Positions 54,451 through 63,883 of a stretch of DNA of 64,000 nt are shown here, piece by piece. The stretch comes from Thiorhodovibrio winogradskyi (GTDB lineage Bacteria; Pseudomonadota; Gammaproteobacteria; Chromatiales; Chromatiaceae). The stretch lies in the NCBI RefSeq assembly GCF_036208045.1, contig NZ_CP121472.1, positions 1,065,531-1,129,530 of the forward strand, written 5' to 3'. The notes beneath the pieces are model-generated. The model made no database searches and was not told where the DNA came from. It saw only the letters and a list, made by a program, of their open reading frames with translations. The position numbers were made by a program, and so were the translations under genes. How positions within the stretch are numbered: position 1 is the stretch's first letter; every line of letters begins with the position of its first letter.

Positions 54451-54483
54451 GAACCGGACTTGGAGTGTTACAGCATCCGGCTC
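54451..54483 (-). ncRNA. Domain V of the minus-strand intron
   Basis: On the minus strand GAGCCGGATGCTG is followed by a loop and AAGTCCGGTTC, giving the lower stem GCCGGA/TCCGGT. The upper stem appears mismatched (GCTG versus CTCC), suggesting loss of catalytic fitness. It overlaps the maturase stop codon. Confidence 0.6.
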
Positions 54484-55832
54484 CCAGTCTGAGTCATCCA
54501 CCAAGGGACGGGGTAAAGGTTGTGGCGAATTTCTGCCTTGGGCAGGAGGCGGCGTATGTAGGCCGAGAATTGCTTCCAGTTAAGCGAGCGCTTCTGGCTT
54601 CGCCTGTTTAGCCACGTAAACAGCAGCCGTTGGGCAAAGTAGATGTAGCTCGACAGCCCGCGACTGTTACCGCTGACACCATAGTACTGAATGTGTCCTT
54701 GCAGATGCCTCGCAAGAAACGCCACCATGGCGTTCCCTCCCTCAGTACGCATCTCCCGCAGGCGGTCGTTGAGGGCCTTGAGCTTCTTGCGCAGGCGCTT
54801 GCCGTCGGTTTTGCGACCAACAACGAAGCGCCCCGTCCGACTCCGACCCACATAATGGGTGAAGCCGAGGAAGCTGAAGGTGCGTGGTCCTTGGTATTGC
54901 ACCCGCGAGCGTCCAAGCCCTCTTGATGTCAACAGGGCACTGCCAACTTGCAGCAGCGCCGTCTTGCTCGGCTCGATCTCCAGATCGAACTCGGCCAAGC
55001 GCTTTTGCATTTCGGTGAGAAAGGCGCGGGCGTCGACCTCGTGCGTGAAGCAGGCCACATAGTCATCGGCGTAGCGAATCAGGTAGGCCTTGCCCGCGCA
55101 CTGCTTTGCAAAACGCTTCTCGAACCAAAGGTCGAGCACGTAGTGCAGGTAGATATTACTCAGTACGGGCGAGACCAATCCGCCTTGCGGCGTCCCTTCG
55201 ACGCTGGCTGCAAATACGCCATCTTCCATGATGCCGGCTTTCAGAAACCGCTCGATGATCCGTGGAAGGTTCGGATCGCCGATGCGATGTTCTAGAAAGC
55301 GCAGCAGGTGGGCATGGGAGACGTGGTCGAAGAAGCCTTTGATGTCAGCTTCAACCACCCCGCAACGTCCGTTCGTTGGTGATGACCTCCGCGACCCGAC
55401 GTAGCGCATCATGCGCACTGCGCCCAGGGCGAAAGCCATAGGAGCAGTCCAGAAACTCCGGCTCCCAGATGGCCTGCAAGATTTGGCTGAGGCGATCCTG
55501 CACCAGACGGTCTTCAAAACTCGGAACACCCAGCGGACGCATGCGTCCGTCCCCTTTCGGGATGTAGGTTCGCCGCACCGGTTGCGGCCGATAGCCCAGT
55601 CGGCGTATCCGTGCCGACAAGTCCTCCAAGCGAGCCAATAGGCCCTTGGCATAGTCCTCCTTTCTTACCCCATCAACTCCGGGCGCCCTGTGCCCAATCG
55701 GGGCGTCCGTCTTGGCGTCCGAAGCTCATCAAGCAACCCCTCGGGATCAAACAACAACCCCATCAGGGAGGTGAACCGCGTGCGCAGTTCCTCGCGCGCC
55801 TTCAGTGTGAAACGTTTCAGTTTGGTTGTCAC
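54468..55832 (-). pseudogene. ltrA: Reverse transcriptase/maturase of the minus-strand intron, frameshifted
   Basis: GTG start TTKLKRFTLKAREELRTRF, then LFDPEGLLDELR. A frameshift near 55700 leads to APGVDGVRKEDYAKGLLARL and RRTYIPKGDGRMRPLGVPS. A second, near 55370, leads to VVEADIKGFFDHVSHAHLL and the active site LIRYADDYVACF. It then runs on to HNLYPVPWWMTQTGS at the stop inside domain V. Two shifts; the RT is not made. Confidence 0.88.
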
Positions 55833-56363: not shown

Positions 56364-56618
56364 TTAGTGATCCCGGCGCTGCTTGGCCAACCAGGCTTCG
56401 ATGGTGGCAGGATCAAGCCCTTTGAGACGATCCTCGGGATCAAGCCCTTTGAGACGATCCTCAGGATCAAGCCCTTTGAGACGATCTTCGGGATCAAGCC
56501 CCTTGAGACGATCCTCGGGAGCGTAACATTGGAGGACTTCTTCAGGATCGAGTTCGCTTAGCGCGCCCCTGAGCCATTCGCGGGCATCGCGGTGCATGTC
56601 TTCTTGTGTGTAGGCCAT
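56364..56618 (-). CDS. Possible intragenic C-terminal protein of copy A
   Basis: In frame inside the long gene. GGAGAAGGA (minus strand, 56622-56630) lies 3 nt before ATG at 56618, giving MAYTQEDMHRDAREWLRGAL, an acidic stretch and four PEDRLKGLD repeats (84 aa). Rpn genes of E. coli are known to make such internal small proteins that neutralise the long nuclease. Applied here by inference. Confidence 0.5.
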   Translation of the reverse strand: MAYTQEDMHRDAREWLRGALSELDPEEVLQCYAPEDRLKGLDPEDRLKGLDPEDRLKGLDPEDRLKGLDPATIEAWLAKQRRDH

Positions 56619-57311
56619 GTATCCTTCTCCCAGGCGAAAATACCCAATGAGATTGTGCAGGTGAATCCCGATGTCGCTGTGCGAGCGATAACTGGCAAAG
56701 GCCGCGCGCCACTGTGCTTCATCCGTGGCGAACAGGCCCCAGGGGGCGTTGCGCGGGTGGGGTTCGAGTTGGTTAATCACCACCAGGCGCATGTCGCGGG
56801 TGCCAAAGCGCAGGTGATAGATTCCCGCTTTCTCGGTCTTTTGACAACTGCCGGATCGCAATTGTTTGACCAGTTGGCGCGGAAAGCGGGTGGCGATGGC
56901 GTAGCAGCGGAAGTCCTCAGCCGGTAATAGCCGGTAGGCTTCCTTGGGCTCCTCCAGCGGTTGGTCTTTGCCTGACTGGCGCTTGCGCAGGGCGCGCAGG
57001 GAGGCGACTTTGCGGTAGGTGACGGAATGACTCAGCAGTTCTTCGGCAAACCAGGCGCTGAAGGGCTCGTCGGCGGCTTTGAAGCTCAGCAGGTTGTGCT
57101 TGGTCAGGTCTTCCAGTCCATCCGGGCAGTCGTCGGCGGGTCTGCTTGTTGCCTGCGGGGATTGCCCCTGTTCGATGATAAGCACATCCAGGCGCTGGCT
57201 ACGCAGGGCGAGTTCTTCTTCAGTGCTGACCTGATAGGGCAAACCGATCAGGGCATCGGCTAGGGCTTGGCCGAGAAGTTTGTGCCAGGGGATGCGTTGG
57301 TCGCGGCGCAT
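56364..57311 (-). CDS. Rpn-like repeat protein, copy A
   Basis: 315 aa, intact. Starts MRRDQRIPWHKLLGQALADA. Conserved blocks are LRSQRLDVLIIEQ, LEDLTKHNLLSFKAADEPF, FRCYAIATRFPRQLVKQL and IYHLRFGTRDMRLVVINQL. I relate them to PD-(D/E)XK-type Rpn-like proteins common in purple bacteria and cyanobacteria; the catalytic residues are not certain. The C-terminus has four 9-residue repeats (PEDRLKGLD), then PATIEAWLAKQ. An internal ATG with a strong Shine-Dalgarno (56618) can start an 84 aa C-terminal protein. Confidence 0.75.
   Translation of the reverse strand: MRRDQRIPWHKLLGQALADALIGLPYQVSTEEELALRSQRLDVLIIEQGQSPQATSRPADDCPDGLEDLTKHNLLSFKAADEPFSAWFAEELLSHSVTYRKVASLRALRKRQSGKDQPLEEPKEAYRLLPAEDFRCYAIATRFPRQLVKQLRSGSCQKTEKAGIYHLRFGTRDMRLVVINQLEPHPRNAPWGLFATDEAQWRAAFASYRSHSDIGIHLHNLIGYFRLGEGYMAYTQEDMHRDAREWLRGALSELDPEEVLQCYAPEDRLKGLDPEDRLKGLDPEDRLKGLDPEDRLKGLDPATIEAWLAKQRRDH
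56410..56517. repeat. 27-bp tandem repeat, 4 units (copy A)
   Basis: Units GGATCAAGCCCTTTGAGACG plus ATCCTCG, 4 copies, encoding PEDRLKGLD on the minus strand. Unit differences are mostly synonymous. Confidence 0.9.
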
Positions 57312-57527
57312 GGTAGCAGTTTAGTCGATCTGCCGGGGGGTGGGGGAGGCGATGGCGTGGTGATGGTTGGCTGCCACAGGAAAAACTCGCGAGGCGCGAA
57401 CCCAGGGGCTGGATGGTGGGGCCAGCGGTCAGGAGGGATCAGTGTGAGGAATTGAGTCTATGTCCCCGGGATTGCGAAAATTAATTCGATCCTGCCCCCT
57501 TTGCTTCTGATTCAGTAAACTGTCACC
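57312..57527. repeat. Flank of module A with REP-like elements
   Basis: Non-coding flank that recurs after copies B and C: G-tract region, AAAAACTCGCGAGGCGCGAA, GGGCTGGATGGTGGGG, GAGGGATCAGTGTGAGGAAT and AAATTAATTCGATCCTGCCC. No promoter is obvious for copy A. Confidence 0.7.
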
Positions 57528-57575
57528 AGAACTCAGAACTCAGAACTCAGAACTCAGAACTCAGAACTCAGAACT
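57528..57575. repeat. Heptanucleotide microsatellite (AGAACTC)n
   Basis: 6.9 perfect copies of AGAACTC. At the equivalent place after copy B (about 59893) only separated single units exist, so the array expanded locally. Confidence 0.9.
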
Positions 57576-57765
57576 TATTCCGGGGGCTGGATGGTGGGAG
57601 CCGTGGTCAGGCGGGATCAGTCAGGGGTATTGAGTATGTCCCCGGAACTCCCCGACGCAGTTGGGCCCAGAACTGCAGGCAGAATGAACGGGAGCAAAGT
57701 TGGAAGTGGGTGCGGGCGTCCTTGCCCTTCAGGTCAGGAGTTCTGGGCTTGGCCGGAGCCGCGCT
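57576..57765. repeat. REP-like composite repeat before vapBC
   Basis: GGGGGCTGGATGGTGGGAG, GTCAGGCGGGATCAGTCAGG, TATGTCCCCGGAACTCC and TGCCCTTCAGGTCAGGAG. Same family as 52507-52715. No gene seen. Confidence 0.65.
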
Positions 57766-57769
57766 TAAT

Positions 57770-57786
57770 GTATATACTGAATATAC
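57770..57786. promoter_or_regulatory. Palindromic operator of vapBC
   Basis: GTATAT-ACTGA-ATATAC, a perfect inverted repeat 23 bp before vapB. AT-rich palindromes at this site are bound by VapB/VapC complexes for autorepression in characterised systems. TATACT/TAATGT segments within could serve as the -10. Confidence 0.6.
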
Positions 57787-57809
57787 TCCGACACCATGGA
57801 ATCAGACCG

Positions 57810-58073
57810 ATGCAAACCCGTATTTTCAAAAGTGGCAATTCCCTAGCCGTGCGTATTCCCAAAGAACTTGCATTTGCAGACAACGTCCAGGAAGTGATGA
57901 TTGAACGCATTGGAACCGCGCTCGTCCTCAGACCGACGGAAGCTCAGTCCCTTGCAGACATCATGGATATTTGTACCATGTTTACGCCAGACTTCATGTC
58001 TGATGGGCGCGCGCCCTCGCCAGAAACGGACAGAGATTGGGGTACTTTTGGAAAAGCAGCAGAGCAGCCATGA
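57810..58073 (+). CDS. vapB: VapB-type (AbrB-fold) antitoxin
   Basis: 87 aa. MQTRIFKSGNSLAVRIPKEL is the swapped-hairpin AbrB/MazE DNA-binding motif. The acidic C-terminus (DFMSDGRAPSPETDRDW) is where VapC would be wrapped. The frame is open upstream but runs through REP-like DNA; this ATG is at the family position. Overlaps vapC by 4 bp. Confidence 0.88.
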   Translation: MQTRIFKSGNSLAVRIPKELAFADNVQEVMIERIGTALVLRPTEAQSLADIMDICTMFTPDFMSDGRAPSPETDRDWGTFGKAAEQP

Positions 58074-58471
58074 GGTATTTACTCGATACCAATATCTGTA
58101 TCTACATTATGCAACATCAGTCGGCATCGGTGGCCGCTCGCTTCGAGACATTAAAACGGGGCGATGTTGGCATGTCGATTATCACCTATGCCGAGCTTCG
58201 AGCCGGCATCGAGAAAAACGCTGATACCAAGGCTCACAATGAAAAAGCATTAGAGCTTTTCGAGCAGCGTGTTCCATACTTGCCTTTTAGTCAAGCCGCT
58301 GCCAACGCATACGGCGTACTGCGCGCCGCCGTTCCTGATCGAAGGCGCAATGCCATGGATCGCTTAATTGCTGCACACGCATTGAGCATTCAAGCCATAT
58401 TGGTAACCAATAACGAGTTGGACTTTGAAGATTACCCAGGCCTCGTTGTTGAAAACTGGGTAACCGATTAA
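58070..58471 (+). CDS. vapC: VapC PIN-domain ribonuclease toxin
   Basis: 133 aa. Starts MRYLLDTNICIYIMQ with the first catalytic Asp. The other acidic residues lie in SIITYAELRAGIEK (Glu), RNAMDRLIAAHAL (Asp) and LVTNNELDFEDYPGL (Asp). Closest to the VapC group that cleaves initiator tRNA. Complete and probably active with VapB. Confidence 0.9.
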   Translation: MRYLLDTNICIYIMQHQSASVAARFETLKRGDVGMSIITYAELRAGIEKNADTKAHNEKALELFEQRVPYLPFSQAAANAYGVLRAAVPDRRRNAMDRLIAAHALSIQAILVTNNELDFEDYPGLVVENWVTD

Positions 58472-58597
58472 GCCGCCAGCGCACCGCGATAACTTTATGA
58501 TCGAGGCATTTAGGCTGCTTAGCAGGCGCCGCGACTGGTGGGTGTCTCGAAAATTAAATCGAACCCGACCCCATTAATTCGCACAATATGAGCACAC

Positions 58598-58628
58598 AAA
58601 AAAGCCCCGAGGTGCGAACCCCGGGGCT
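58598..58628 (-). terminator. Terminator downstream of Rpn-like copy B
   Basis: AGCCCCG (58603-58609) pairs with CGGGGCT (58622-58628), with six T on the minus strand. It lies 33 bp beyond the end of copy B in its direction of transcription. Part of the REP-like family. Confidence 0.65.
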
Positions 58629-58661
58629 GGATAGTGGGAGTCAGTAGTCAAGCGGGATCAG

Positions 58662-58967
58662 TCAGGGGGAATTAAGAACACTGTCCCCGGAACTCCTGCC
58701 CTGCTTGGCCAACCAGGCTTCGATGGTGGCAGGATCAAGCCCTTTGAGACGATCCTCGGGATCAAGCCCCTTGAGACGATCCTCGGGATCAAGCCCCCTG
58801 AGACGATCCTCGGGATCAAGCCCTTTGAGACGATCCTCGGGATCAAGCCCCTTGAGACGATCCTCGGGAGCGTAACATTGGAGGACTTCTTCAGGGTCGA
58901 GTTCGCTCAGTGCGCCCTTGAGCCATTCGCGGGCATCGCGGTGCATGTCTTCTTGTGTGTAGGCCAT
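58662..58967 (-). CDS. Possible intragenic C-terminal protein of copy B
   Basis: ATG at 58967 preceded by GGAGAAGGA (58971-58979, minus). 101 aa: MAYTQEDMHRDAREWLKGAL, five repeats, then a different tail ending SVLNSP where the frame runs into REP DNA. Confidence 0.45.
   Translation of the reverse strand: MAYTQEDMHRDAREWLKGALSELDPEEVLQCYAPEDRLKGLDPEDRLKGLDPEDRLRGLDPEDRLKGLDPEDRLKGLDPATIEAWLAKQGRSSGDSVLNSP
58732..58866. repeat. 27-bp tandem repeat, 5 units (copy B)
   Basis: Five 27-bp units, the third encoding PEDRLRGLD. Same register as in copies A and C. Confidence 0.9.
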
Positions 58968-59734
58968 GTATCCTTCTCCCAGGCGAAAATACCCAATGAG
59001 ATTGTGCAGGTGAATGCCGATGTCGCTGTGCGAGCGATAGTTGGCATAGGCCGCGCGCCACTGTGTTTCATCCGTGGCGAACAGGCCCCAGGGCGCGTTG
59101 CGCGGGTGGCGTTCGAGTTGGTTGATCACTACCAGGCGCAGGTCGCGGGTGCCAAAGCGCAGGTGATAGATTCCCGCTTTCTCGGTCTTTTGACAACTGC
59201 CCGGTCGCGGTTGTTTGACCAGTTGGCGCGGAAAGCGGGTGGCGATGGCGTAGCAGCGGAAGTCCTCGGCCGGTAACAGCCGGTAGCCTTCCTTGGGCTC
59301 CTCCAGCGGTTGGTCTTTGCCTGACTGGCGTTTGCCCAGGGCGCGCAGGGAGGCGACTTTGCGATAGGTGACGGAGTGACTGAGCAATTCTTCGGCAAAC
59401 CAGGCGCTGAAGGGCGCATCGGCGGCTTTGAAGCTCAGCAGGTTGTGCTTGGTCAGGTCTTCCAGTCCATCCGGGCTGTCGTCGGCGGGTCTGCTGGTTG
59501 TCTCCGGGGATTGCCCCTGTTCGATGATGAGCACATCGAGGCGCTGACTGCGCAGGGCAAGTTCTTCTTCGGTGCTGACCTGATAGCGCAAACCGATCAG
59601 GGCATCGGCCTGGGCAAGGCCTAAGGAGTTTGTGCCAGGGGATGCGTTGGTCGCGGCGGCGCATGGTAGCAGTTTAGTCGATCTGCCGGGGGGGGTGGGG
59701 GAGGCGATGGCGTGGTGATGGTTGGCTGCCACAG

Positions 59735-59934
59735 GAAAAACTCGCGAGGCGCGAACCCAGGGGCTGGATGGTGGGGTCAGCGGTCAGGAGGGATCAGTGT
59801 GAGGAATTGAGTCTATGTCCCGGGGATGGCGAAAATTAATTCTACCCTGCCCCCTTTGCTTCTGCTTTGCTTCTGATTCAGTAAACTGTCACCAGAACTC
59901 GGTCACCAGAACTCGCATTTTGCGCCGCCGCGCG
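59735..59934. repeat. Flank of module B with REP-like elements
   Basis: Same order of elements as after copy A, ending with two separated CACCAGAACTCG units instead of a microsatellite. No gene. Confidence 0.65.
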
Positions 59935-60070
59935 TCAGTGCCGGTCCTCGCCCCCAAGTAAATCCTCCGCGCTGGTGGCATCGAAAATGCCGTCCAGCCA
60001 GGTCTCGACCTGTGCCTCGGAATCGTCGGAGATGATGCGTTGCGCCGCCCAGGCGTTGACTGACGCGCGC
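59935..60070 (-). pseudogene. C-terminal fragment of a DUF2887-type gene
   Basis: About 40 codons: DSEAQVETWLDGIFDATSAE followed by DLLGGEDRH and a stop. They match the end of the intact gene at 62539 (SEAQLETWLDGIFDVTSVED). Only the last tenth of the gene remains, immediately downstream of the DUF4351-type gene. Confidence 0.8.
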
Positions 60071-60078
60071 CATAGGCC

Positions 60079-61044
60079 TCAGTGGAAGATGGTCTCGGGG
60101 GTCTCGGCGCTGAGGATGCGACCCAGCCAAGTGTCGAGTTGCTCAAGCTCGGCCTGCTCGATGCGCTCGCGGTGCGTTTGCACGGCCTCGGGGCCGAATT
60201 TTAAATCAAGCTGACGCAGCAATGTCCTGGCCTCGCCCTGCTGCACTCCCAGCTCCATCCCCTTCTCAATTCCGGCTTGCTCAAACGTGGTGACATAAGG
60301 CATTTGGCGTTGCTCCTCGTAGGCATAGAGTTCTTGGCGAAATTCCGCCTCCAGCGCCGCGGGCAGGCGGATCATCCAGTCGATAAGGCGTAACACCTCT
60401 TCAATGAGCGCGCGCTCGTGGCCGCGCTCGTACATCAGGCGCATCAAACGGAATTTCCAGCGTTTCAGTGTCTCGGCATCGTCGGTGACCTTGGCCTGAA
60501 TTTGCGCCATGACCACCAAGGCAAAAACATTGTCGCTGGCTTCCATCTCGGCCCAGCGCTCGGGGCTGGTGTAGTCGAGCAGTTTGACCATGGGGAAGCG
60601 AAAGACGATCCCGCAGCCCCAGCGGGCGTGGCGAAATGACTTCGGGCGAAAGCGGGGGCTGGTGTCGGTCAGGACCGCGAGGCTGACGACATCTGTGTTG
60701 TAACGATCCCGCAGGCGGGTCTGGTAGAGAAACATCCGTGCGCCAAAGTCGCCCTCGGGGTCGCCTTGGACTTCGACATGGATCAGCACATAAAGATCGC
60801 TGCCGTCTTTGGCGCGCACCCGAACCAGTTTATCGGCATGGCGGCGGCCGCGCGGGCTGTTGCCGCCGATCTGTTGGAGTTCTTTGTCAAGAAACTCTGG
60901 CGCCACGCGCCAGTCGATCTGGTCATGGATGGCCGGGAACAGCAGCGCGAGAAACTCTGGAAAGAACCGCTCCAGCGCTTCTTTCCAGGGGCTGTCGTAG
61001 TCGGCTTTGTCGCTGGTGTCGCTGGCTTGGGTGTCGGCTCTCAT
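60079..61044 (-). CDS. Rpn-type nuclease with DUF4351-like C-terminus
   Basis: 321 aa from MRADTQASDTSDKADYDSPW; the in-frame extension to 61173 crosses a terminator and is excluded. KEALERFFPEFLALLFPAIH, then LYVLIHVEVQGDPEGDFGAR (putative PD-(D/E)XK core, with Glu in HVEVQ) and RDRYNTDVVSLAVLTD are typical of the Rpn/transposase-like family. The C-terminal helix-rich region GEARTLLRQLDLKFGPEAVQ resembles DUF4351. Intact relative of the pseudogene at 42112. Confidence 0.82.
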   Translation of the reverse strand: MRADTQASDTSDKADYDSPWKEALERFFPEFLALLFPAIHDQIDWRVAPEFLDKELQQIGGNSPRGRRHADKLVRVRAKDGSDLYVLIHVEVQGDPEGDFGARMFLYQTRLRDRYNTDVVSLAVLTDTSPRFRPKSFRHARWGCGIVFRFPMVKLLDYTSPERWAEMEASDNVFALVVMAQIQAKVTDDAETLKRWKFRLMRLMYERGHERALIEEVLRLIDWMIRLPAALEAEFRQELYAYEEQRQMPYVTTFEQAGIEKGMELGVQQGEARTLLRQLDLKFGPEAVQTHRERIEQAELEQLDTWLGRILSAETPETIFH

Positions 61045-61116
61045 GGGGGGCGAGTGTAGCCGATTTGGTGGCCGAGAGGGGAGCAGCCGAGCCACGAGCC
61101 CCGCCAATCCAAACGC

Positions 61117-61149
61117 AAAAAACCCCGCCCCGATGGTTCGGGAGCGGGG
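61117..61149 (-). terminator. Terminator downstream of Rpn-like copy C
   Basis: CCCCG...CGGGG stem (61123-61149), with TCGGGG/TCCCGA-like inner pairing and six T on the minus strand. It separates copy C from the DUF4351-type gene. Confidence 0.7.
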
Positions 61150-61289
61150 TTGGAAAGGGGTTTTGGGCGTCATTGCCTATCTGATCCGGAGTGCCGGGCT
61201 TGGCTTGCGCTTCGCCGGGCAATGCCTCGAGAATAAATCGATCCCTTTAACCCTTTAACCGAGCAGTCAGAGGGATGGGCAATCCGCGC

Positions 61290-61517
61290 TTAGTGATCCC
61301 AGCGCTGCTTGGCCAACCAGGCTTCGATGGTGGCAGGATCAAGCCCCCTGAGACGATCCTCGGGATCAAGCCCTTTGAGACGATCCTCGGGATCAAGCCC
61401 CTTGAGACGATCCTCGGGAGCGTAACATTGGAGGACTTCTTCAGGGTCGAGTTCGCTCAGTGCGCCCTTGAGCCATTCGCGGGCATCGCGGTGCATGTCT
61501 TCTTGCGTGTAGGCCAT
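61290..61517 (-). CDS. Possible intragenic C-terminal protein of copy C
   Basis: ATG at 61517 preceded by GGAGAAGGA (61521-61529, minus). 75 aa: MAYTQEDMHRDAREWLKGAL, three repeats, and the ending ATIEAWLAKQRWDH like copy A. Confidence 0.45.
   Translation of the reverse strand: MAYTQEDMHRDAREWLKGALSELDPEEVLQCYAPEDRLKGLDPEDRLKGLDPEDRLRGLDPATIEAWLAKQRWDH
61336..61416. repeat. 27-bp tandem repeat, 3 units (copy C)
   Basis: Three 27-bp units. The two-unit (54 bp) difference explains why copies B and C are offset by 2604 bp on one side of the array and 2550 bp on the other. Confidence 0.9.
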
Positions 61518-62373
61518 GTGTCCTTCTCCCAGGCGAAAATACCCAATGAGATTGTGCAGGTGAATGCCGATGTCGCTGTGCGAGCGATAGTTGGCATAGG
61601 CCGCGCGCCACTGTGTTTCATCCGTGGCGAACAGGCCCCAGGGCGCGTTGCGCGGGTGGCGTTCGAGTTGGTTGATCACTACCAGGCGCAGGTCGCGGGT
61701 GCCAAAGCGCAGGTGATAGATTCCCGCTTTCTCGGTCTTTTGACAACTGCCCGGTCGCGGTTGTTTGACCAGTTGGCGCGGAAAGCGGGTGGCGATGGCG
61801 TAGCAGCGGAAGTCCTCGGCCGGTAACAGCCGGTAGCCTTCCTTGGGCTCCTCCAGCGGTTGGTCTTTGCCTGACTGGCGTTTGCCCAGGGCGCGCAGGG
61901 AGGCGACTTTGCGATAGGTGACGGAGTGACTGAGCAATTCTTCGGCAAACCAGGCGCTGAAGGGCGCATCGGCGGCTTTGAAGCTCAGCAGGTTGTGCTT
62001 GGTCAGGTCTTCCAGTCCATCCGGGCTGTCGTCGGCGGGTCTGCTGGTTGTCTCCGGGGATTGCCCCTGTTCGATGATGAGCACATCGAGGCGCTGACTG
62101 CGCAGGGCAAGTTCTTCTTCGGTGCTGACCTGATAGCGCAAACCGATCAGGGCATCGGCCTGGGCAAGGCCTAAGGAGTTTGTGCCAGGGGATGCGTTGG
62201 TCGCGGCGGCGCATGGTAGCAGTTTAGTCGATCTGCCGGGGGGGGTGGGGGAGGCGATGGCGTGGTGATGGTTGGCTGCCACAGGAAAAACTCGCGAGGC
62301 GCGAACCCAGGGGCTAGATGGTGGGGCCAGCGGTCTGGAGGGATCAGTGTGAGGAATTGAGCCCCCATAATTC

Positions 62374-62410: not shown

Positions 62411-62460
62411 GCCACATTAATTGCCATTCGATCCTGCCCCCTTTTGCTCCTCTGACCCCT

Positions 62461-62520
62461 TTTGCTCCTTTTGCTCGCCTTTTGCTCCTTTTGCTCGCCT
62501 TTTGCTCCTTTTGCTCGCCT
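62461..62520. repeat. 20-bp tandem repeat, 3 perfect units
   Basis: TTTGCTCCTTTTGCTCGCCT three times, with partial units on both sides (about 62440-62530). Strongly strand-asymmetric pyrimidine-rich DNA just after the DUF2887-type gene. Confidence 0.9.
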
Positions 62521-62538
62521 TTTGCTCGCTTCCGCGCG

Positions 62539-63414
62539 TCAGTGCCGGTCCTCGCCTCCGAGCAAATCCTCAACGCTGGTGACATCAAAAATGCCATCGA
62601 GCCAGGTTTCAAGCTGCGCCTCGGAGGCGGCGGCGATCCGCCGCTCGACCCAGGGTTGCAGCGAGCCGAAGCGCCGGGTCAGTTGCCGATGCAATGTTGT
62701 GGCTTTGCCCTCCGCTTTGCCCTCCGCTTTGCCCTTCTCCTCGCCATCCGCCAATCCCTCGGCATAAATCGATTGATACGCCTTGGTTTCTTGGATCGGG
62801 GTGATCAGGTTCAACATGGCCCAAATCTCCTTTGCTGACTTGTCTTTGTAGCGCTCAAAAAACCAAAACTCCATGACGTCCGACAGCGTCGCGCGGATCT
62901 CGTCTCCCAGCGGCGCTTGTTGGATGCTCTGCCAGAGCGCCGGGGCGCGCTCGGCCAGTTCGGCGTCACGCTCGATCACCAGCGGGGCGAATACCGCCAC
63001 AAAGGGGTTGTGCGGTTCGCGATCAAGCAACGCGCGCAGGAAGCTGTCGAGGGCAACACAGTGAATGGGCGAGCCTGGCGCATGGACCCAGCGTGGGTGT
63101 TTCGGGATGTCGGCGGCATGGAGAAACACGGCGATGCCGACCACTTCCCGCTCTGGATGCTCCTCGCCGTAGAGGCCGACTTTGCTGCTCAGATTGTACA
63201 GCGCCTTGGCCGACGGCTGGGCTTGGAATTCGACCACATAGGTCGGCCCCGGGTGATGAATGGGTTCAAGCAGACCATCGATCCGACGCTCGATGGTTTT
63301 GAGCGTCAGCGAGCAGGCGGTATAGGGGCCTTGGAGCTCCAGGCCGCCGGTGAGGACCCGGAAGGCTTCGGGACCGCTGCGCAGAAAAAGATAAATCGGG
63401 TGGTCGGTCTTCAT
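62539..63414 (-). CDS. DUF2887 family protein (Rpn-type putative nuclease)
   Basis: 291 aa from MKTDHPIYLFLRSGPEAFRV; in-frame sequence up to 63528 is not family-like. YTACSLTLKTIERRIDGLLE, then PTYVVEFQAQPSAKALYNL (Glu-x-Gln of the nuclease core) and REVVGIAVFLHA are typical of DUF2887. The C-terminal GKAEGKAEGKA repeat precedes a helical tail, RFGSLQPWVERRIAAASEA. The family is related to recombination-promoting nucleases; function not shown. Confidence 0.85.
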   Translation of the reverse strand: MKTDHPIYLFLRSGPEAFRVLTGGLELQGPYTACSLTLKTIERRIDGLLEPIHHPGPTYVVEFQAQPSAKALYNLSSKVGLYGEEHPEREVVGIAVFLHAADIPKHPRWVHAPGSPIHCVALDSFLRALLDREPHNPFVAVFAPLVIERDAELAERAPALWQSIQQAPLGDEIRATLSDVMEFWFFERYKDKSAKEIWAMLNLITPIQETKAYQSIYAEGLADGEEKGKAEGKAEGKATTLHRQLTRRFGSLQPWVERRIAAASEAQLETWLDGIFDVTSVEDLLGGEDRH

Positions 63415-63673: not shown

Positions 63674-63883
63674 TCATGCGGCAAAGGTCACCTGAATCGG
63701 CTCGATTGGTGGCTCGCCCTGTTCGATACGCTCGGCCATTACCCGCAAGGCCAGCGCCTCGGCGCGCGCCACAGCCTCTTCGCGCGTCTGGCCATATTGC
63801 ATCGCGCCCGGAATGTCGATGACCTCAGCCAACCAACGACCATCGCTTTCTCGTTCAGTTTGCACGGTCATTTGCATTGCCAT
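63674..63883 (-). CDS. HicB family antitoxin-like protein, orphan
   Basis: 69 aa. MTVQTERESDGRWLAEVIDI, then PGAMQYGQTREEAVARAEAL is the HicB partial-RNase-H fold. No DNA-binding tail. A GGAG precedes the ATG. Neither the 117 bp upstream (to the window edge) nor the downstream DNA holds a recognisable hicA, so it is an orphan within this window. Confidence 0.82.
   Translation of the reverse strand: MAMQMTVQTERESDGRWLAEVIDIPGAMQYGQTREEAVARAEALALRVMAERIEQGEPPIEPIQVTFAA

Follow-up and report, generated by a model that had tools for sequence, protein, structure and literature searches.

Three related genes in a 64,000-nucleotide stretch of the Thiorhodovibrio winogradskyi genome (contig NZ_CP121472.1, positions 1,065,531 to 1,129,530; hereafter the window) probably represent a divergent toxin-antitoxin system of the Rpn type, built as a gene within a gene, in which a long nuclease form would be silenced by its own C-terminal module, translated from an internal start. 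In all three genes (copies A, B, and C; Table 1), an in-frame GGAGAAGGA-NNN-ATG lies at the same codon, with GGAGAAGGA at positions -12 to -4 before ATGs at 56618, 58967, and 61517 on the minus strand, and the codons before the internal Met read GGA-GAA-GGA-(TAC/CAC)-ATG. The short C-terminal open reading frames (ORFs) opened there encode 84 (A), 101 (B), and 75 (C) amino acids (aa), and each holds an array of 27-bp repeats encoding 9 residues apiece. An earlier note on this DNA had reported the string three bases before an in-frame ATG in every copy, and it can be read directly in the sequence.

Rpn genes with an internally encoded short form provide the precedent (Zhong et al. 2023, PMC10327210), and the excerpts of that paper available to us describe RpnS as inhibitory in Escherichia coli. 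In the mechanism we propose, the long form would consist of a PD-(D/E)XK-like nuclease and a C-terminal oligomerization or inhibitory module, and the short form would be the C-terminal module alone, made from its own Shine-Dalgarno (SD) sequence and ATG where the two domains join. By binding the C-terminal module of the long form from the same gene, the short form would most likely keep the nuclease silent. Changes in the number of 9-residue repeats alter both products together and would set their pairing, as for RpnS and RpnL in E. coli.

Codon choice at the internal start

The claim of the earlier note that the internal ribosome-binding site is better than that of the long form held throughout the family. 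Duplex energy in copy A is -7.3 at the internal site versus +0.4 at the long-form start, which has no SD, and the internal site was the stronger in all 34 ORFs with a placeable long-form ATG (49 examined, 15 without one). Internal sites reached -5.9 or better in 48 of 49 ORFs, the exception being locus L057 at -3.0; among the 230 in-frame internal ATGs in 34 mechanically called ORFs from window positions 1-54000, taken as a chance sample, one is as good as -7.3 and 11.7% are as good as -5.9. The Met column is ATG in 50/50 long ORFs with a residue there (52 aligned, two gapped). Two subfamilies, set by amino acid and not by codon, share this column: group I (G-[E/D]-G-x-M) and group II, which has Glu at the same place and is ~37-45% identical to A, with 3/52 ORFs in neither. 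The first Gly codon of group I is GGA in 26/26 ORFs, although these ORFs use GGA for 17-19% of Gly. In dereplicated sets of 20 and 12 ORFs, with 117 and 106 conserved degenerate columns, respectively, no other invariant codon is as improbable; in the full set, GGA ties with the AGT of a Ser-Cys-Gln (S-C-Q) element. What is conserved at the group I site is GGAGA at -12 to -8 rather than the AGGA closest to the ATG. Group II has GAG for its Glu in 23/23 ORFs (GAG being ~50% of Glu codons), which ranks 2-3 of 67-96 columns. Synonymous positions are also constrained in the S-C-Q element (AGT-TGT-CAA at 56841-56849 on the minus strand, residues 155-157 of A), which is identical in 25/26 group I ORFs despite varying flanking codons and is not an SD.

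A phylum-wide profile search of 398 genomes returned matches in 20 beside the window's own genome, all from another class. Judged by hhalign (99.2%, E 1e-19), the N-terminal domain of these proteins is homologous to residues 2-209 of A. Of 32 such ORFs, the 8 that were scanned all end in DUF4351, above the cut-off, and some relatives carry 4-residue repeats that by eye resemble those described for Rpn; in some species, separate RpnS-type proteins are annotated as DUF4351, according to the excerpts of PMC10327210. The junction again holds a near-invariant Met (26/26 dereplicated ORFs), mostly after TGG-AGG or AGG-AGN, and the aligned Arg before it is AGG or AGA in 18/18 cases, compared with AGR in 10/223 at 11 other conserved Arg columns. 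Met could be located in 29 of 32 ORFs (the other 3 lack the pattern, and some ORFs are near-identical); 26 of the 29 have an SD 4-mer, and in the three that do not (L090, L093, and L111), GGAGG precedes a different Met slightly further along. The junction is hence preceded by a purine-rich signal in three lineages, each with its own amino-acid context, at about the same distance from Met, and we regard this as the strongest evidence for selected initiation there. Conservation of the internal site in homologues, the lack of which the earlier note had named as refuting, is seen at the codon level.

Separate C-terminal ORFs point in the same direction. Matches were found in 43 of 61 genomes around G137, one of these other-class genomes, and among the matches listed many ORFs comprise the C-terminal part only. 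From 16 fetched stretches, a chosen rather than random sample with short flanks, we kept ten such ORFs that were uncut by a contig end, unfused, and without an N-terminal remnant (L195 [second], L197, L200, L205, and L208 were dropped for the contig end; L199, L203, and L204 for a remnant). All ten retain the Met, seven have it as their first ATG, and in six it follows an SD of -5.7 or better; the short ORF of L194 lies directly downstream of a full gene. These ORFs bear on a second explanation, in which internal initiation is real and the short form serves as a subunit in the complex of the long form, like Cas11d in type I-D Cascade. Cas11d, cited in the excerpts of PMC10327210, shows that subunits can be translated internally, and repeat modules suit oligomerization, but short ORFs without a full gene in the (short) fetched stretch, together with kinship to DUF4351-tailed proteins, make a subunit improbable, given that DUF4351 annotates some separate RpnS and RpnS is inhibitory in E. 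coli in the same excerpts.

Several results weigh against an internally started antitoxin. The internal site is the best among all ATGs of its gene in only 25/49 ORFs (hand count), and synonymous conservation around it, which the earlier note had proposed to compare, is divided: a 5-codon window at the group I site is unexceptional (best rank 46 of 207), whereas the group II site is high in the sliding window (rank 3 of 180). Where homology of the separate C-terminal ORFs starts no more than 3 residues from Met (5/10), an SD is found in only one (L194). Relics in the window's genus are N-only in 5 cases versus C-only in 4 (hand count; relics lacking only the middle were left out), so a C-terminal retention bias in the genus was rejected. 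The C-module of copy A has no DUF4351 match. Synonymous shuffles of group I equal the observed energy in 33-76% of cases. Lastly, where 11 aligned other-class relatives have invariant E38, P46, D49, E83, and K85 (E..P..D..ExK), hhalign places A's E31 and D42 on E38 and D49 and K78 one column off K85, and by eye A's S76-F77-K78 stands for E83-x-K85, leaving Ser for the catalytic ExK Glu; the activity of A is therefore uncertain.

The shuffles speak for the view that only protein is conserved, with Met and the G-E-G, R-E, or W-R residues being structural and the SD-like string a by-product that yields no short form. The G-[E/D]-G residues of group I already spell such a string, so the evidence lies in codon choice and not in energy; energy, not significant against group I shuffles (group II values ran from 0.09 to 0.65), was dropped as a test statistic. 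A structural role would also fit the predicted helix (236-251, pLDDT [predicted local distance difference test] under 50) directly after the internal Met. It would leave the invariant, partly rare codons (GGA 26/26, GAG 23/23, AGR 18/18 versus 10/223, counts only partly corrected for shared ancestry) unaccounted for, as well as the signal being borne by different amino acids in three lineages, and we consider it unlikely.

Predicted nuclease domain, range, and fate of the copies

The long form is predicted to be a nuclease that would cut DNA. Cfr10I/NgoMIV-type PD-(D/E)XK enzymes have SxK with a conserved Glu ~13 residues on. By sequence likeness, A has S76-x-K78 and, 12-13 residues on, E90-E91, which could replace the missing ExK Glu; this is a lead. 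An AlphaFold2 model (19 sequences) had a mean pLDDT of 62, best at ~131-210 and poor in the C-module, and searches of solved structures gave no credible match: pentatricopeptide repeat (PPR) rows (E 2e-8, no stretch passing alone) and Pin1 rows were judged spurious, and the one match of copy A to PDB chains had E 1.2. Copies A, B, and C matched no Pfam or PADLOC model and no Rpn model (TIGR01784/COG5464) at E up to 10; a single weak NCBIfam match for copy A was confined to the repeat region. The earlier note's description of the genes as Rpn-like is right in design and distant kinship, despite the lack of a model match. Its suggestion of a divergent family of the same design is well supported by codon choice in three lineages, DUF4351-ended homologues, and separate C-terminal ORFs, and we read the A family as an Rpn-type design with a different, 9-residue-repeat C-terminal module.

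The T. winogradskyi genome (5.48 Mb, one contig) holds 29 stretches matching copy A. Among related genomes, matches occur in 7/54 others (8/55 counting its own). Named relatives, at 29 loci, are purple sulfur bacteria: Halochromatium, Lamprobacter, Allochromatium palmeri, a Thiohalocapsa metagenome-assembled genome (MAG), and MAGs labeled only Gammaproteobacteria or Chromatiaceae. Relatives were absent from the plasmid collection and, in a pattern-based search, from viral contigs, and phage or plasmid carriage was rejected on this basis. Repeat number differs among copies: the C-terminal part is 57-103 aa long, with lengths usually differing by multiples of 9 (broken rows of 19 and 37 aa were excluded).

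Copies B and C, with 99.5% identity over 1026 bp, have one frame change near the start in common, so they count as one case rather than two independent ones. Copy L008 carries the same frame change; its nuclease part is nearest A among the compared copies and its C-module nearest L007, which suggests recombination of pieces between copies, also close to where the modules join. The frame-change sequence in B, C, and L008 resembles a known +1 recoding site. The earlier note saw in B and C an antitoxin part kept after toxin loss, an idea that B and C, being one event, do not support; in the genus, N-only relics are as frequent as C-only ones. In a tandem array of one relative (L035/L038/L041; G001 3229292-3231745), a full gene is followed by two copies without the first ~83 residues, in which D42 and K78 are gone and each of which has the internal start and its own 9-residue repeat number. 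Many relics and frame-broken copies, with B and C broken near the start, would suit decaying selfish repeats that spread and erode, with the internal site as a relic. Against such decay, dN/dS (the ratio of nonsynonymous to synonymous substitution rates) of 0.09-0.33 in 8 pairs of intact copies points to purifying selection on the nuclease part, and conservation reaches codon level across genera; we hold it to be very unlikely.

A conserved box before the long-form start

The long form, which lacks an SD, begins behind a different signal. TANA[C/G]T lies exactly 6 nt before the long ATG in 36/43 distinct starts, with one at 7 nt and six without it; the 43 include relics and close copies, and where several ATGs were possible, preference went to an ATG preceded by the box. 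Box and ATG are separated by 6 variable nt, and the box occurs at that place in 0/1709 ATGs of window 1-54000. With the A of ATG as +1, the box sits at -12 to -7, the place of a -10 element, and a leaderless message is therefore predicted. Three genus genomes contain 34, 21, and 10 instances of a longer pattern, TCGRCTARACT-N6-ATG, versus 0 in reversed controls; the pattern precedes group I, group II, a TIGR01784-like family, and also short or relic ORFs, as well as at least one ORF (L156, 96 aa) that could not be assigned to a family. Conservation of some columns extends as far as 25 nt upstream, making the element longer than a -10 box. A canonical -35 was sought and rejected (at least 4 matches at spacer 16-18 in 4/42 dereplicated contexts, versus 1-3/42 at other spacers). 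The TANACT element is likely a promoter whose -35 is not evident; the sigma-70 reading is uncertain, and the element could serve another role.

We tentatively raise the possibility of a dual-mode toxin-antitoxin system, in which a leaderless toxin message would come from a dedicated -10-like element with its transcript start at the ATG, the antitoxin would be made from the internal SD, the ratio of the two would follow the leaderless/SD balance, and at least two nuclease families would form one regulon. In mycobacteria, toxin-antitoxin genes have leaderless messages, and the ratio of leaderless to SD translation rises in growth arrest, as reported in the excerpts available of PMC8485053. If the dual-mode proposal is true, the toxin:antitoxin ratio could shift upon ribosome damage or phage takeover, for instance, and the element would be common to both subfamilies of the A family and to the TIGR01784-like family. 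The balance of two initiation modes might then set toxin release. How the toxin escapes an antitoxin made from the same gene is left open in the excerpts of PMC10327210, and an SD-less long start with a fixed -10-like box would be a directly testable answer.

Neighboring genes and known systems

The window holds five genes that look alike in design (Table 1), beside a VapBC-like pair (MazE-type antitoxin and PIN toxin) at 57813-58471, between copies A and B. Among the fetched loci, the gene at 60079 and its relatives have GAGGAG..ATG at the matching place in 11/11 distinct genes, opening 66-86 aa. Short-period CCTTTTGCT repeats occupy 62440-62527, between the gene at 62539 and copy C, and a small HicB-like ORF, below the cut-off, lies at 63674-63883. 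A reverse transcriptase ORF is found at 54468-55652, and a group II intron may end directly after the copy A stop codon.

Table 1. Coordinates of the three copies and of two further genes of like design, in window positions
Feature	Position	Strand	Remarks
Copy A long form	56364..57311	(-)	315 aa; predicted PD-(D/E)XK-like nuclease domain (~1-225) and C-terminal repeat module
Copy A internal ORF	56364..56618	(-)	84 aa, M232 on; predicted antitoxin
Copy A internal SD	56622..56630	(-)	GGAGAAGGA
Copy A TAAACT box	57318..57323	(-)	6 nt before long-form ATG; -10-like, predicts leaderless message
Copy A repeat array	56410..56520	(-)	27-bp repeats encoding (EDRLKGLDP)n
Copy B long gene	58662..59664	(-)	frame changed near start; remaining long frame open
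Copy B internal ORF	58662..58967	(-)	101 aa; final residues unlike other copies
Copy B internal SD	58971..58979	(-)	
Copy B TAAACT box	59671..59676	(-)	
Copy C	61290..62214	(-)	frame change identical to that of copy B
Copy C internal ORF	61290..61517	(-)	75 aa
Copy C internal SD	61521..61529	(-)	
Copy C TAAACT box	62221..62226	(-)	
Another Rpn-type family gene	60079..61044	(-)	321 aa; matches to TIGR01784 and to DUF4351, each below cut-off; TACACT box 8 nt upstream of ATG; internal GAGGAG..ATG at 60303 (74 aa)
DUF2887 + DUF4351 gene	62539..63414	(-)	both matches above cut-off; internal AAAGGAG..ATG at 62817 (92 aa; by eye); TAAACT element upstream, ATC where ATG would stand

In the literature searched, no account of the copy A family or of the TANACT arrangement was found among the matches listed, and by title and abstract only PMC10327210 and one earlier E. 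coli study (PMC5350276) among them concerned Rpn systems. The internally started antitoxin that we favor would extend intragenic antitoxins to a nuclease clade named by none of the searched libraries, and the data suggest that the internal start persists while the protein around it changes, even where the C-terminal module is exchanged. Like RpnL/RpnS of E. coli and Clostridioides difficile, as far as the excerpts of PMC10327210 describe them, the A family joins a nuclease to a variable C-terminal module with an internal ribosome-binding site and ATG at the junction, varies in repeat number, and is present in several to many copies per genome; separate C-terminal ORFs are likewise shared, on our side only in the other-class relatives. 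The A family differs in matching no Rpn, Pfam, or PADLOC model, in lacking DUF4351, and in its 9-residue repeats, compared with the 4-residue repeats of Rpn in the same excerpts. By eye, E. coli rpnA has an SD at both starts, whereas the long start of the A family has none and carries TANA[C/G]T 6 nt upstream, and A has SxK where its relatives have ExK. With DUF4351 (PF14261) proteins, the likeness is that other-class relatives sharing A's N-terminal domain end in DUF4351, and the difference lies in the C-module of A, which does not match DUF4351.

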